Source: Nitrospirota bacterium (GTDB taxonomy: Bacteria > Nitrospirota > Thermodesulfovibrionia > Thermodesulfovibrionales > SM23-35). Taken from it: 45,102 nucleotides of DNA. Where the stretch lies: assembly GCA_013388435.1 (NCBI GenBank), contig JACAFE010000048.1:1-45102 (forward strand), read 5' to 3'. The stretch's first letter is position 1, and every line of letters starts with the position of its first letter. The notes beneath the pieces are model-generated. The model saw only the letters and a program-made list of their open reading frames with translations. It made no database searches and was not told where the DNA came from. Positions 38,737 to 44,915 of the stretch are shown piece by piece. A program made the position numbers and the translations under genes.

Positions 38737-40056
38737 ATGAATAACAAAAACAGATATAGTTTTATATTAATTATTTTATTACTGATGTTCTGTATTTTTT
38801 CTTTCCAGAATATTTTAGTGGCAGAAACATCCAATGAAAATAGACAAATTATGGTTATTACAATCAATAGTGTAATCAATCCTATATCAGCTGAGTTTAT
38901 ACAAAAAAGCATTGCAAGGGCAAATGACAAAAATTTTGAAGCTCTTGTAATCGAACTTGACACACCTGGTGGACTTGATGCAAGTATGAGAACAATTGTG
39001 AAGGAGATAATTAATAGCAGAGTTCCCGTGATTGTTTATGTTTCACCAAGTGGAAGCAGAGCTGCTTCTGCAGGGGTTTTTATAACTCTTGCTGCTCATA
39101 TAGCTGCAATGTCTCCTGGAACGAATATAGGTGCTGCGCATCCAGTAGGCATTGGTGATAAAATGGATAAAACAATGGCTGAAAAAGCAACTAATGATGC
39201 AGTTGCATATATTAAATCTATTGCTGAACAAAGAGGCAGGAATGCAAAATGGGCAGAGGCCGCTGTAAGAAAAAGCATCTCTTCAACAGAAATAGAAGCT
39301 CTTAATCAAAATGTAATAGATATTATTTCAAAAGATTTAAATACACTTTTAAATGATATTAATGGTAAAAAAGTCAAAACAATTTCCGGGGAAAAAATTC
39401 TTCGCACAAAAGATGGCGTTATTTTTAGACAGGAAGCTGGTTTACGGCATAAGATTTTAAATTTAATATCTGATCCGAATGTGGCTTATATTTTAATGTT
39501 GCTTGGGTTTTACGGTCTGTTTTTTGAACTCACTAATCCCGGGGCAATTTTCCCGGGGGTTTTAGGCGGAATATGTCTGATTCTTGCTTTTTATTCTTTT
39601 CAAACTTTACCTGTGAATTATGCAGGTCTTTTGTTAATTGTACTTGCGATTATTTTTTTCTTGCTTGAAATAAAAATAGTATCACATGGCGTATTGACTA
39701 TTGGTGGTATAATTTCCATGCTTATTGGTTCAATAATGCTGTTTGAATCTCCAGCGCCATTTATGAAGCTATCCTTAGCAATTATTCTACCTTCAGTCAT
39801 TGTTACTACAATTTTTTTTACAGTTATTGTAGGATTATCATATAAAGCTCAAAAACGAAAACCGGTTACTGGAGCAGAAGGACTTAAGGGTTCCGTTGGT
39901 ATAGCAGAAACTGATATTACGAAAAATAGCGGAATGGTGTTGGTTCATGGAGAAATATGGTCAGCATATTCAGATGAACCAATAGCTAAAGGTGAACGGG
40001 TTATAGTAGAATTTGTCTCGGGACTGAAATTAAAAGTCCGCAAACAAGGAGGCTGA
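38737..40056 (+). CDS. NfeD-family membrane serine protease
   Basis: This 439-residue protein has a signal anchor (residues 8-28) and a ClpP/Clp-like protease domain (35-215) with [11 protein letters not shown], the serine motif [14 protein letters not shown] and [12 protein letters not shown] with a lysine downstream. Several membrane helices follow (about 240-375), then an NfeD OB-fold domain (about 380-439: [35 protein letters not shown]). Such proteases (STOPP) cleave partner membrane proteins and are nearly always linked to a slipin gene, as here. The slipin start is 1 bp beyond this stop. Confidence 0.93.
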
Positions 40057-40057
40057 G

Positions 40058-40828
40058 ATGTCAATATTTGCACCATCTTTTATGGGTTTTATTTTTATTA
40101 TTTTCCTGATTGTCTATTTCCTTTCAAGCGCAATAAGAATATTAAGGGAATATGAAAGAGGAGTTGTTTTCAGGCTCGGAAGAATCATACCTGTCAAAGG
40201 TCCGGGTCTTGTGATAATTCTTCCTGTTGTTGATAAATTGGTAAAAGTCAGCCTTCGAACTGTAACTATGGATGTGCCGGCTCAAGATATTATTACAAAG
40301 GACAATATTTCGGTTAAAGTCAATGCTGTTGTATATTTCAGAGTTATGGACCCAATAAAAGCAATAACCGAGGTTGAAGATTATTACTTTGCAACTTCTC
40401 AGATTGCTCAAACAACACTCAGAAGCATTCTTGGACAGAGCCAGCTTGATGATTTACTTGCAAAAAGGGAAGAAATTAATGCAGAACTTCAGAAGGTAAT
40501 TGATTTTCAGACTGAGCCGTGGGGAGTAAAAGTTACAGCAGTTGAAATTAAAAATGTTGATTTGCCAGCTGAGATGTTAAGAGCAATAGCAAAACAAGCA
40601 GAAGCAGAGCGTGAAAGAAGAGCTAAAATCATTCATGCAGAAGGTGAATTTCAGGCAGCGCAAAAACTTACAGAAGCTGCTAATATTATTGCTACCGCGC
40701 CTTCAGCTCTGCAATTAAGATTTTTGCAGACATTGACAGAAATAGCAACCGAGAAAAATTCAACCATAATTTTCCCTGTCCCGATTGATCTGATAAAACC
40801 CTTCATGGAAATGGGGAAAAAAGACTAA
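40058..40828 (+). CDS. Slipin (stomatin/prohibitin-family, SPFH)
   Basis: This 256-residue protein has one N-terminal membrane segment (about 8-25) and an SPFH domain (30-210): [34 protein letters not shown]-like [36 protein letters not shown] and [18 protein letters not shown] charged helix then ends in the conserved [20 protein letters not shown]. Slipins form membrane rings or scaffolds and partner with NfeD proteases. An AAGGAGG ribosome-binding site overlaps the end of the NfeD gene. Confidence 0.94.
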
Positions 40829-40851
40829 AATCTGGAGGTGTGCAAAAATAA

Positions 40852-41529
40852 TTGAAAAACAGGATATGGCTTAAATTAGTTATCCTGATTACAATTATAG
40901 CAGGTTCATCTCTTGTTTTATATCAGACAGGTTTAATTTCATTTTTCCTGAGCAGGGATAAAATTAAACTATTTCTTGAATCATTAGGACCGCTGTCATC
41001 TATTGGTTTTGTACTTCTTCAAGCCTCTCAAGTAATAATTTCACCAATACCCGGGGAAGTCACAGGTTTTATGGGCGGGTTTTTTTTCGGCACAACACCT
41101 GGAATAATTCTCTCTACAATAGGGCTTACTATTGGTTCTTGGATAGCTTTTACACTTTCAAGATATTTAGGAAGACCTTTTGTTGAGAGGTTTGTAAAAA
41201 AAGAAACACTTGATCGTTATGATTATCTTTTACATCATAAAGGAGCTTTTCTTGTTTTCCTGCTTTTTTTAATTCCCGGGTTTCCGAAAGATTATCTTTG
41301 CTATATTCTGGGGCTTGGTCATCTAAGCACCAGAGAATTTCTTATTATAAGTACTGTTGGAAGATTTCTGGGAACTGTTCTCCTTACATTAGGGGGCGAT
41401 TATATACGTCATCATCAGTATTATCGATTTTCAATATTGCTTGGTATCGCTATTATTTTTATTCTTTTTTCGTTAGCATATAAAGACAAAATAGAAAAAT
41501 TATTCAAAAAATATTCTATACATAAATAA
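40852..41529 (+). CDS. VTT-domain (DedA/TVP38-like) membrane protein
   Basis: This 225-residue integral membrane protein has about five to six hydrophobic segments. The VTT core includes SPIPGEVTGFMGGFFFG, GSWIAFTLSRYLGRPFVERF, FLLFLIPGFPKDYLCYILGL and STVGRFLGTVLLTLGGDYI. DedA/VTT proteins help move or flip lipids and support membrane energetics; the substrate is unknown. The start codon is TTG 40852, with GGAGGTG upstream; no ATG fits. It follows the slipin gene by 23 bp and probably belongs to the same transcript. Confidence 0.88.
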   Translation: MKNRIWLKLVILITIIAGSSLVLYQTGLISFFLSRDKIKLFLESLGPLSSIGFVLLQASQVIISPIPGEVTGFMGGFFFGTTPGIILSTIGLTIGSWIAFTLSRYLGRPFVERFVKKETLDRYDYLLHHKGAFLVFLLFLIPGFPKDYLCYILGLGHLSTREFLIISTVGRFLGTVLLTLGGDYIRHHQYYRFSILLGIAIIFILFSLAYKDKIEKLFKKYSIHK

Positions 41530-41572
41530 AAAATAATATCACTAAACTAAAATAAAAATAGGGCACCTAACA

Positions 41573-41629
41573 ATGACTAAATTTATGAAAAAAATAAACT
41601 ATTGGAGGCTGAAGTATAAAAAACAATAA
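41573..41629 (+). CDS. Possible 18-residue leader peptide
   Basis: The frame encodes MTKFMKKINYWRLKYKKQ, rich in lysine and aromatic residues. A GGAGG inside it could serve a downstream start. It has no obvious ribosome-binding site of its own and no family that I know. It may be a leader peptide or coincidence. Confidence 0.2.
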   Translation: MTKFMKKINYWRLKYKKQ

Positions 41630-41862
41630 ACAATTACGGTTATGATGCCCGTTTCGGTTAGCAGCTAAGTCGTTCGTCTATATCATATTACCGCTTGGCG
41701 TTACCGATATGGGATTCATTACAGTTTGACGCTTTTTGTTTAACAAAATTTCCTTTATTAAAGTGAGAGCAAGGGATTGTTATATACGTATTTCAGATAA
41801 GGGAAAGGAGGTGAAACTGCAGTTTTGTATTTTGGTTATAACGTAATAACTACTAAATAAAA

Positions 41863-41880
41863 TTCCTGAATTATCAGGAA
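41863..41880 (+). promoter_or_regulatory. Hairpin just upstream of a ribosome-binding site
   Basis: TTCCTGA (41863-41869), ATTA loop, TCAGGAA (41874-41880) is a perfect 7-bp stem, 9 bases before AGAAGGGGG and 24 bases before the ATG at 41905. There is no T-run, so it is not a terminator. It may shape translation initiation or protect the mRNA 5' region. Confidence 0.4.
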
Positions 41881-41904
41881 CTATTCCAGAAGGGGGTAGA
41901 GAGA

Positions 41905-43185
41905 ATGCAGAACGCAAAAACAATGCAATATGAAAGAACAAGAAGATTTGAAAGAAAACCTTATTCAGAAGTTATAGCTTATTCATTAGGCGTAAAAGAG
42001 GACAAAAAACGTAAGTGGATTGATTTAACTGGCAGGGCAATTAACATCAGCGAAGCAGGCATATGTATTGAAACAGAGTATCCACTAACACCTGGACATA
42101 TGCTGTGGTTTAACAATGGCCTTGACAATAAAGCAGGATTTGTAAGATGGTCAGCTCGATATGATGACAAATTCAGAGCAGGCATCGAACTTGATGGCAA
42201 TAATATAAAGCAACTTGATGAAGCTACAGAGATATTTATAAAAAGACTTGAAGAAATTGAAAAACGCTGTGATAATTCTGACGAAAAACCAGAAGCTATA
42301 ATGTCATCTATTAAAAATGCATTTGATGACATGCTTAATTCCTGCAGATTGTTTGAAATAGCAGTTAATGATGAAGAAATAATCAAAGATGCAAGAATAA
42401 GATTTCGTCAGAAGACTAACAAAATATTTTCAAAAAGCTATTGCATTAATCGTGCAAGAACATGGCCGCAGGGTTATCAGGGAGATTACAAAACTCTTGA
42501 AAGCATATACCGTAATACACCTTTATCCAGTGGGTTTGGATATTACCTTGACTTATATTGTCTTGGCTGGCCATTAGGAAGAGGAGTAAGGAATAGATTG
42601 CAAAAACTTAAGGATATTTTAAAAGAAGAAATATCATACAGACAGAACCCAAAAATTTTAAACATAGCCTGCGGATCATGTCGTGAAGTTTTTGAGCTTG
42701 CAGGTGTTATTGAAAAATCAGGCGCAAAAATAACTTGTATAGATCTTGATGATGATGCTCTTGCATTTGCTGCAAACAGATTATCATTTACAAATATTAG
42801 TCCTGCAATTTCAAATCAAGTAGTTCTGAGAAAATATAATGCCTTAAGAATGTTCGACGATGAGTTAAATATGACAGAGTTCGGGAAACAGGATATAATT
42901 TATAGCATCGGGTTATTTGATTATCTGGATACAGAATTTTTGATAAAATTATTTAGAGCTCTTTATGAATTGCTGAATCAAGGAGGCGTATTAATAATTT
43001 CTTTTAAAGATGCCATGCGTTATCGCTCACAGGAATATCACTGGATTGTTGATTGGGACGGATTTCTTCAGAGGACAGAAGAAGATTTTATGGATATTTT
43101 TTCAAAAGCAAATATTCCAATGCATTATATTTCTGAACAGCGTGAAGAAACTGGCGTTATAGTTTTCTATACGGTAAGAAAATAA
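41905..43185 (+). CDS. PilZ domain fused to SAM methyltransferase-like domain
   Basis: Residues 10-115 form a PilZ domain with the c-di-GMP motif RRFERKPYSE and INISEAGICIE. A helical linker (about 115-235) follows. Residues 245-426 form a class I methyltransferase-like Rossmann domain: ILNIACGSCREVFEL (motif I), ITCIDLDDDALAFA (motif II), DIIYSIGLFDYLD and LLNQGGVLIISF. The start has a good AGAAGGGGG ribosome-binding site. Both halves look intact, so c-di-GMP may control methyl transfer; the acceptor is unknown. The ketosynthase gene begins 1 bp after the stop, so this protein is probably part of that lipid or polyketide locus. Confidence 0.85.
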   Translation: MQNAKTMQYERTRRFERKPYSEVIAYSLGVKEDKKRKWIDLTGRAINISEAGICIETEYPLTPGHMLWFNNGLDNKAGFVRWSARYDDKFRAGIELDGNNIKQLDEATEIFIKRLEEIEKRCDNSDEKPEAIMSSIKNAFDDMLNSCRLFEIAVNDEEIIKDARIRFRQKTNKIFSKSYCINRARTWPQGYQGDYKTLESIYRNTPLSSGFGYYLDLYCLGWPLGRGVRNRLQKLKDILKEEISYRQNPKILNIACGSCREVFELAGVIEKSGAKITCIDLDDDALAFAANRLSFTNISPAISNQVVLRKYNALRMFDDELNMTEFGKQDIIYSIGLFDYLDTEFLIKLFRALYELLNQGGVLIISFKDAMRYRSQEYHWIVDWDGFLQRTEEDFMDIFSKANIPMHYISEQREETGVIVFYTVRK

Positions 43186-43186
43186 T

Positions 43187-44419
43187 ATGAAGAAAAAAGT
43201 GGTAATTACAGGAGTTGGAATACTATCGTCTATTGGCATTGGGAGACAGGCTTTTCGTGAAGCCCTGTTTCAAGGCAGAATTGGTTTTAAGCCAATAACA
43301 CTTTTTGATACTTCAAAATATTCTGTAAAAACAGGAGGTGAGATAACTGATTTTGATCCTTTAGCTTTCTTAGAAAAAAAGGGATTGAGGGAATTAGACA
43401 GAAGCACGCGGTTAGTTTGCTCTGCTGCAAAACTCGCTATTGATGACAGTAAAATAATTATAACTGAATCAAATACCCATTCTATCGGCGTTTCAATTGG
43501 TACAACATTTGGCAGTCTAAAAAGCATTGCGGAATTTGACAGGACAAGTCTTATCGAAGGACCGAGATATGTAAACCCTTCCTTTTTCCCGAACACTGTA
43601 ATAAACTCTCCTGCCAGCAGGATTTCAATAAGATTTAAAATAAAAGGGTTCAACACAACCATATCAACTGGTTGTTGTGCAGGAATAGACGCTATTTCAT
43701 ATGCTTCAGATTTTATAAGCATGGCGAGAGCTGATATTGTTTTTGCAGGAGCAGTTGAAGAGCTTTGCGAGGATACCTTTTTTATATTGCAAACTATGGG
43801 ATGTGTTTCAGGAACAAATGGAGGCAAAGCTCAATGCTGTCCTTTTGATGCCCGGAGGAATGGTATAATTTTTTCAGAAGGTTCAGCAGTGCTTACCCTT
43901 GAAGAAGAAAATCATGCGATACAAAGGAATGCAAATATACTTGGTTATATTTCAGGATATGCTAATGCCTTTGACTATACATCTGATGGTTATTTTAAAT
44001 GCAGTGGCAAAGGGCTCGAAAATGCAATAAGACTTGCATTGAAGGATGCAAAATTAACTACTGAAGATATAGATTGTATTTTTTCTTCAGCAAATTCAAC
44101 AAAAGAACTGGATGTACTTGAGACAGGAGTAATAAAAAACGTTTTTGGTAAAAAGGCGTATGACATTCCTATTACTGCGGTAAAATCAATGCTTGGCGAA
44201 ACATATTCTGCCGGCGGAGCGCTTGCGTGTGCTTCTGCTGTGGAAGCTTTAATTCATAAGACAATTCCACAGACTGTTAATTTTGAGGAAAAAGACCCTG
44301 AATGTGATCTTGATTATGTTACAGAAGGCGTAAGAAAAAAAGACCTTACAAATATTTTGATACTATCAACAGACTTCTATGGCAACAATTCAGTATTAAT
44401 AATAAGCAGGTATGGTTAA
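43187..44419 (+). CDS. Atypical beta-ketoacyl-ACP synthase (His to Asn/Glu)
   Basis: This 410-residue FabF-family protein (TGVGILSSIGIG at the start) retains the nucleophile Cys163 in TISTGCCAGIDAIS and the conserved lysine in AVKSMLGETYSAGG. Both catalytic histidines are replaced: the first, in the usual AHGT motif, by Asn303 (SANSTKELD), the second, usually in KSMTGH, by Glu338. Normal decarboxylative condensation needs these histidines, so it may be a partner subunit (as in KS-alpha/KS-beta pairs), a different acyltransferase, or use altered chemistry. A second ketosynthase begins at 44908, consistent with a pair. Confidence 0.87.
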   Translation: MKKKVVITGVGILSSIGIGRQAFREALFQGRIGFKPITLFDTSKYSVKTGGEITDFDPLAFLEKKGLRELDRSTRLVCSAAKLAIDDSKIIITESNTHSIGVSIGTTFGSLKSIAEFDRTSLIEGPRYVNPSFFPNTVINSPASRISIRFKIKGFNTTISTGCCAGIDAISYASDFISMARADIVFAGAVEELCEDTFFILQTMGCVSGTNGGKAQCCPFDARRNGIIFSEGSAVLTLEEENHAIQRNANILGYISGYANAFDYTSDGYFKCSGKGLENAIRLALKDAKLTTEDIDCIFSSANSTKELDVLETGVIKNVFGKKAYDIPITAVKSMLGETYSAGGALACASAVEALIHKTIPQTVNFEEKDPECDLDYVTEGVRKKDLTNILILSTDFYGNNSVLIISRYG

Positions 44420-44477
44420 CGCATGTATTAAAGTAAAAGGTCTTTTGCTTTTATTAAATAAAAATTGGAGATACTTT

Positions 44478-44915
44478 ATGAAACTGAGTTTTGAAGATAT
44501 TAAAAAGATTATACCCCAGCGTTTTCCATTCATCATGATTGATAAAATTATTGATATTGAACCAGGCAAATCTGCAACAGCAATAAAAAATATTTCAGGA
44601 AATGATATCTTTTTTTTGGGTCATTTCCCTGATAAAGCAGTTATGCCCGGGGCTGCAATTATTGAAGCAATGGCACAGGCATCTATAGTGCTTTTTGCAA
44701 CAGCAAAAGGTGATGGAAACGGTAAACCTCAAATATATCTCTTTGGTTCGGTAAAAGCCCGTTTTCACCATCCTGTTTTTCCCGGTGATCAACTTATAAT
44801 TAAAGTTGAGAACGTAAAGTCCCTCCCAAATGGAGCATATGTTTCAGGAGAAGCTTTTGTAGATGAAAAAAAAGTATCGGAGGCTGAATTAGTATTCAGT
44901 GTGCAAAATGAATAA
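44478..44915 (+). CDS. 3-hydroxyacyl-ACP dehydratase (FabZ-type)
   Basis: This 145-residue hot-dog-fold dehydratase has IPQRFPFIMIDKI, the catalytic histidine in GHFPDKAVMPG and the glutamate in AAIIEAMAQAS, then VKARFHHPVFPGDQL. It would remove water from 3-hydroxyacyl-ACP made in the same locus. I choose ATG 44478 because TTGGAG lies nine bases upstream and the family motif follows soon; the open frame extends back to 44412 over a non-conserved stretch that overlaps the previous gene. It overlaps the next gene by 8 bp. Confidence 0.92.
   Translation: MKLSFEDIKKIIPQRFPFIMIDKIIDIEPGKSATAIKNISGNDIFFLGHFPDKAVMPGAAIIEAMAQASIVLFATAKGDGNGKPQIYLFGSVKARFHHPVFPGDQLIIKVENVKSLPNGAYVSGEAFVDEKKVSEAELVFSVQNE

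Follow-up and report, generated by a model that had tools for sequence, protein, structure and literature searches.

A PilZ-methyltransferase fusion and its membrane sensor partner in Nitrospirota: a candidate lipid-signal module with c-di-GMP input

In the genome of a Nitrospirota bacterium (GCA_013388435.1, contig JACAFE010000048.1) a gene encoding a PilZ-methyltransferase fusion heads an operon that continues with the ketosynthase KS1, FabZ, the second ketosynthase KS2, an ACP, a CrtI-like FAD oxidase and a hybrid sensor kinase. The window, which is the whole stretch of DNA that was analysed (45,102 nucleotides), is the entire contig C58 and ends within KS2; the C-terminal KS2 codons lie at the end of another contig of this genome, C24, which carries the remainder of the operon (Table 1). 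In related genomes the conserved pair consists of the methyltransferase and the sensor domain. With about even confidence, we read the whole as a Phc-like synthase/receptor module for an acyl methyl-ester signal, which would have c-di-GMP as a direct input and an acyl-chain cassette of its own.

Table 1. Features of the fusion gene and of the operon that follows it (positions in the window unless a contig is named; residues are those of the encoded protein)
Feature	Position	Strand	Details
PilZ-methyltransferase fusion gene	41905..43185	+	ATG start, 426 aa, single intact ORF
PilZ domain	41941..42195	+	residues 13-97; six-stranded barrel 18-96 in the AlphaFold model, directly behind RxxxR
c-di-GMP motif RxxxR (RRFER)	41941..41955	+	residues 13-17; in all canonical PilZ fusions examined
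c-di-GMP motif [DN]xSxxG (NISEAG)	42043..42060	+	residues 47-52; in all canonical PilZ fusions examined
Helical domain, candidate acyl-binding region	42196..42570	+	residues 98-222 (model helices 98-244); family motif RTWPxGYQGD
Class I SAM methyltransferase domain	42571..43182	+	residues 223-426; motif I NIACGSCRE 253-261, ribose-binding D280
KS1, FabF-like ketosynthase	43187..44419	+	Cys163 kept, both catalytic His lost (now Ser, Glu); putative KS/CLF-type partner
FabZ-type 3-hydroxyacyl-ACP dehydratase	44412..44915	+	NF000582 143 bits, cutoff 113
KS2, first 65 aa, broken off by the contig end	44908..45102	+	C-terminal piece on contig C24
KS2 C-terminus, ACP, FAD oxidase, hybrid sensor kinase	contig C24, L165 3448-7439	-	same genome

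The fusion ORF is preceded by the sequence GGGGG about 12 bases upstream of its start. Its product is 84% identical to the orthologue of a sister genome and 55-64% identical to those in the family. When compared to the sister gene, dN was 0.087 and dS 1.19 overall, and dN/dS was about 0.07 in the PilZ part and the methyltransferase part alike, indicating that both parts are under purifying selection. With a ratio this low and conservation across families, we rejected a chance ORF, a decaying gene and a pseudogene. The AlphaFold model (38 homologues) had a mean pLDDT of 89.7 and a pTM of 0.81, and places the barrel, the helices and the Rossmann domain in that order. A c-di-GMP riboswitch was also sought upstream of the fusion, and Rfam gave no match in 41400-42000 or anywhere in the window. 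Genes for NfeD, slipin and a VTT-domain protein (window 38737-41529) lie directly upstream of the fusion, as they do in several genera, and the same set is found in this position in genomes that only have the methyltransferase-kinase pair (L120, L123).

The canonical c-di-GMP motifs of PilZ domains are RxxxR and [DN]xSxxG, and both are found in the fusion. The second motif follows 34 residues after the first in nearly all canonical PilZ fusions, the spacing being 35 in L095. The Pfam PilZ profile PF07238 scored the window protein at 18.4-21.1 bits, just under the curated cutoff of 22.5, which is exceeded by orthologues of identical layout (L087, 23.6 bits; L049, 27.2 bits; L050, 28.3 bits). 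Moreover, the genome encodes 13 PilZ matches (12 over the cutoff), 14 GGDEF domains and one EAL domain, which shows that c-di-GMP signalling exists there. From the motifs and the model, the PilZ domain of the fusion quite probably binds c-di-GMP.

Several class I families of Pfam (Methyltransf_12, 25 and 11) matched the window protein over their cutoffs, and with the model this identifies a class I SAM methyltransferase with a Rossmann fold. Motif I, the acidic D280, the motif IYSxG(L/F)FDY and the C-terminal W380, W384 and R390 are invariant or nearly so in 38 homologues; in the helical domain P188, G190, G193 and D194 are invariant in the same set. An earlier note on this DNA had described a PilZ domain with both c-di-GMP motifs joined to an apparently intact SAM-dependent methyltransferase. 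This description is borne out by the single ORF, by RRFER and NISEAG, by the Pfam matches and by the model, and the alignment of the SAM site agrees with it, as the residues of the site are conserved, with C256, G257, R260, E261 and D280 invariant or nearly so in the homologues.

By both fold and profile the best PDB match was 3OCJ (fold E 3e-11, TM 0.67 of target; profile E 6.5e-11), with an identity to the methyltransferase of only 16% and a profile match confined to the Rossmann part. 3OCJ is the orthologue of Bordetella pertussis FmtB (BP2936), and its crystal contains a ligand, most likely palmitate (PMC5426589). Overproduction of FmtB in vivo raises fatty-acid methyl esters, depending on the SAM-binding Asp-Tyr pair, and its authors did not achieve an in vitro reproduction of the activity (PMC5426589). 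In searches of BFVD with the fusion model, the top viral fold match was an Orpheovirus SAM methyltransferase (A0A2I2L486, TM 0.76 of target), which exceeds every PDB match. Relatives of the methyltransferase also form the C-terminal end of polyketide synthases on an Enterobacter ludwigii plasmid (L167 3649-6786) and in the Nitrospirota genome G110 (L178 1010-8557), a position at which release of the chain as a methyl ester would fit.

KS1 starts one base past the stop codon of the methyltransferase and is followed by FabZ and KS2, so that the statement of the earlier note that the fusion starts a locus of acyl-chain enzymes was confirmed, with the ACP and the FAD oxidase found on C24. In the sister genome a single contig carries, in this order, NfeD, slipin, VTT, PilZ-methyltransferase, KS1, FabZ, KS2, ACP, FAD oxidase and kinase. 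The kinase on C24 is composed of the sensor, PAS, HisKA, HATPase and receiver domains and shares 77% identity with its counterpart in the sister operon. The sister genome (L086) is recorded as Nitrospira japonica Tomsk_35_41, and as its close relatives are Thermodesulfovibrionales MAGs this label is probably wrong. KS2 of the sister genome has the full Cys-His-His set (Cys165, His296 and His333; L042); the equivalent residues of the window genome fall in the gap between C58 and C24. The active-site Cys of KS1 (163/164) is conserved in 28 orthologues. The two ketosynthases are a KS/CLF-like pair with an unusual partner: as in type II KS/CLF pairs, two FabF-like proteins are adjacent, KS2 with Cys-His-His and KS1 without both His, but KS1 retains the Cys that classical chain-length factors do not have. 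In several other families of the order a FabG-type ketoreductase is added to the operon. The earlier note had proposed to see whether ketosynthase genes follow the fusion in other genomes, and they do follow it in 16 of the 19 PilZ-motif loci with usable downstream sequence.

In many genomes, however, the methyltransferase is directly followed by the same kind of sensor kinase and ketosynthases are absent. A sensor profile made of the first 214 residues of the operon kinase matched 54 of 149 genomes, and the methyltransferase was present over most of its length in 44 of the 149 relatives examined. The sensor kinase was found in 40 of the 44 methyltransferase genomes versus 14 of 106 others (Fisher 6e-20, genomes being counted regardless of phylogeny); these 14 carry the sensor type without the methyltransferase. 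When both were on one contig, the sensor was located downstream, on the same strand and within 10 kb in all 27 cases, with or without ketosynthases. Likewise, the sensor kinase closes all 14 ketosynthase loci that have at least 7 kb of downstream sequence. Matches of the operon kinase to further kinases of the window genome lie almost entirely outside the sensor region. In Desulfobacula (L155 1915-5179) a methyltransferase with a cNMP-binding domain is followed by the same membrane sensor domain joined to PAS and an HD-GYP-type domain, with no kinase, so that it is the sensor and not the kinase that tracks the methyltransferase. In some relatives (Planctomycetota, Bacteroidota) no sensor lies nearby. 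Fold searches with the sensor domain gave only weak matches, both of them to membrane domains, namely those of ImcA (8WCN, E 0.025) and of adenylyl cyclase 5. On a Pseudanabaena plasmid (L168 4899-7518) a related methyltransferase adjoins an opposite-strand kinase and a response regulator, and this kinase weakly matches the sensor profile (E 0.003).

The ketosynthase cassette accounts for one change on a tree of 78 methyltransferases, a quick search with a single gene, in which its clade has a support of 100. This indicates that the cassette is a single later gain between methyltransferase and sensor. The pairs without ketosynthases together with this single gain led us to reject the ketosynthases as the defining ancestral partner of the methyltransferase.

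Within Nitrospirota the PilZ-methyltransferase fusion is conserved. Scanning the GTDB species genomes yielded 79 distinct loci, mostly from Nitrospirota MAGs (Thermodesulfovibrionales and relatives), then from Desulfobacterota, and further from Planctomycetota, Omnitrophota, Elusimicrobia and others; 48 of the 246 genomes in a phylum sample reached 1e-40 or better against the 420-position profile. Omnitrophota and Elusimicrobia likewise have PilZ fusions (L152, L157). The methyltransferase can carry at its N-terminus a canonical PilZ domain, a degenerate PilZ domain that retains RxxxR and has an NLGLNG-like second motif, a cNMP-binding domain, or none of these, and the presence of PilZ changes 12 times on the tree of 78 methyltransferases. 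On Rhizobium and Roseateles plasmids a related methyltransferase gene adjoins genes for c-di-GMP proteins of the GGDEF/EAL or EAL type (L169 2414-5714; L171 2523-6934; L173 1673-4885).

A plasmid of Paraburkholderia graminis harbours a cluster encoding a methyltransferase (468 aa), a kinase (445 aa), a receiver and a response regulator, which is the order of phcBSRQ. With the Nitrospirota methyltransferase profile the Paraburkholderia methyltransferase scored 91 bits (E 2.8e-24), and the kinase of the cluster scored 76.6 bits (E 1e-19) with the sensor profile, indicating that both are homologous to the methyltransferase-kinase pair of this phc-like cluster. The phospho-His of the Paraburkholderia kinase is at position 233, close to His230 of Ralstonia PhcS (PMC12993560). 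A degenerate PilZ domain in the Paraburkholderia methyltransferase was apparent by eye, and a profile comparison gave no significant match for it. Taken together, the match to the phc-like cluster, the similarity to 3OCJ/FmtB and the relatives at the C-termini of polyketide synthases favour an acyl carboxyl as the substrate, and by this analogy we consider it likely that the methyltransferase methylates such a group.

For c-di-GMP binding, the substrate and the product, the direction of control and the recognition of the product by the sensor, we infer the following scheme. Binding of c-di-GMP to the PilZ barrel would shift the barrel and the helical domain over the methyltransferase and thereby open or close it. 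The enzyme, acting as an acyl carboxyl-O-methyltransferase, would methylate the carboxyl end of a fatty-acid-like chain, which in the clade of the window is probably built by the cassette of KS2/KS1, FabZ, ACP and FAD oxidase, optionally joined by a ketoreductase. In turn, the downstream histidine kinase would sense the methyl ester through its membrane sensor domain, as in the case of PhcB and PhcS in Ralstonia. If the methyl ester is sensed by the cell that makes it, it may be a lipid cue internal to that cell and not a cell-to-cell signal.

The main rival to the signal-module reading is that the methyltransferase tailors a structural product of the ketosynthase cassette, such as a membrane lipid, polyene or pigment, that c-di-GMP tunes this product for surface life, and that the role of the sensor kinase is limited to monitoring the membrane or to regulating the operon. 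In the clade of the window the methyltransferase is indeed coupled to KS1, FabZ, KS2, ACP and a CrtI-like oxidase, and an FAD oxidase together with a KS/CLF-like pair would suit a polyene-type product. However, pairs of methyltransferase and sensor without ketosynthase genes are widespread and look ancestral, and the homologous Paraburkholderia cluster has no such genes either, so that we regard tailoring as rather unlikely. The suggestion of the earlier note that the methyl transfer belongs to lipid or polyketide synthesis can therefore be kept only in part: ketosynthase genes do co-occur with the fusion, but the main tie is to the membrane sensor (27 of 27), the cassette is one later insertion, and the Phc and FmtB relatives point to an acyl methyl-ester signal rather than only to a membrane lipid or polyketide.

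The PilZ domain could also be a structural or protein-docking platform that does not bind c-di-GMP, leaving the methyltransferase unregulated. The score of the window domain under the Pfam cutoff would be in line with this, as would the frequent loss, degeneration (NLGLNG type) or replacement of the N-terminal domain by a cNMP-binding domain, with the 12 changes in PilZ presence. Yet every canonical PilZ fusion keeps both motifs, with their spacing nearly constant, and dN/dS of the PilZ part is as low as in the enzyme. Moreover, the swaps go to another nucleotide-binding domain, suggesting that a ligand serves as input, and a platform without c-di-GMP binding appears improbable to us. Highly unlikely is a further alternative, in which a protein methyltransferase of the CheR type achieves adaptation by modifying the sensor kinase and c-di-GMP sets the gain, as in a fused analogue of MapZ-CheR1. 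There is a weak CheR match of Pfam to the window protein (27.6 bits, cutoff 27), the methyltransferase usually adjoins a sensor protein, and MapZ-CheR1 provides a precedent (PMC7288161), but small-molecule methyltransferases match better, the nearest structural match belongs to a fatty-acid methyltransferase whose pocket holds what is most likely palmitate, relatives are fused to polyketide synthases, and the operon has no chemoreceptor.

Going further, and only tentatively, we propose that the signal module represents a widespread family, in which an autoinducer synthase is gated by a second messenger (PilZ and c-di-GMP, or a cNMP-binding domain in relatives) and paired with a matched membrane sensor that has a kinase or HD-GYP-type output. 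Cell-to-cell signalling and c-di-GMP would be wired at the protein level in such a family, and one Nitrospirota clade would have acquired a custom acyl pathway of the KS/CLF type. The parts are of known kinds; what would be new is the joining of a Phc-like synthase/sensor module to a second-messenger input and to an acyl pathway of its own. Usually, c-di-GMP and quorum sensing are connected via transcription. If the synthase indeed contains a c-di-GMP receptor, the two would be linked directly, and a chemical signal would be predicted in deep-branching Nitrospirota. The two-gene signature of a GYxGDY-type methyltransferase followed by a LDYFVTPENF...GGHxSxYYAG sensor is searchable and could serve to look for acyl methyl-ester signalling beyond Betaproteobacteria.

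Our literature search found no description of a fusion of PilZ with an acyl methyltransferase, subscription literature being mostly outside the search, and no report of Phc-type quorum sensing for Nitrospirota. In tblastn searches of plasmids, neither Ralstonia nor Cupriavidus was among the matches listed. The product of PhcB in Ralstonia is methyl 3-hydroxymyristate or 3-hydroxypalmitate, which is sensed by PhcS (PMC10653808, PMC12993560). The Nitrospirota module resembles this system in having a methyltransferase gene followed by a sensor kinase, the link being made via the Paraburkholderia cluster, which is called phc-like by gene order and family. It differs in the N-terminal PilZ domain with intact c-di-GMP motifs, in the cassette of KS, FabZ, ACP and FAD oxidase between methyltransferase and kinase, in its phylum, and in the hybrid kinase that carries its own receiver, whereas Phc has separate PhcR and PhcQ. 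As the operon has no separate response-regulator gene of the PhcR/PhcQ type, the receiver being fused to the kinase, and the comparison to PhcB runs only via the Paraburkholderia cluster, we did not class the module as a Phc system.

FmtB/3OCJ and the window protein share a helical substrate domain ahead of the Rossmann methyltransferase and the acidic residue that ends strand 2 (D147 in FmtB, D280 in the window protein). FmtB, however, has no PilZ domain and no described pairing with a sensor kinase, and the identity is low as given above. MapZ acts as an inhibitor on the protein methyltransferase CheR1 (PMC7288161) and is a protein of its own, whereas the PilZ domain is fused here. In the cellulose synthase BcsA, c-di-GMP acts through a PilZ domain on the enzyme, as it would in the fusion, but BcsA is a glycosyltransferase.
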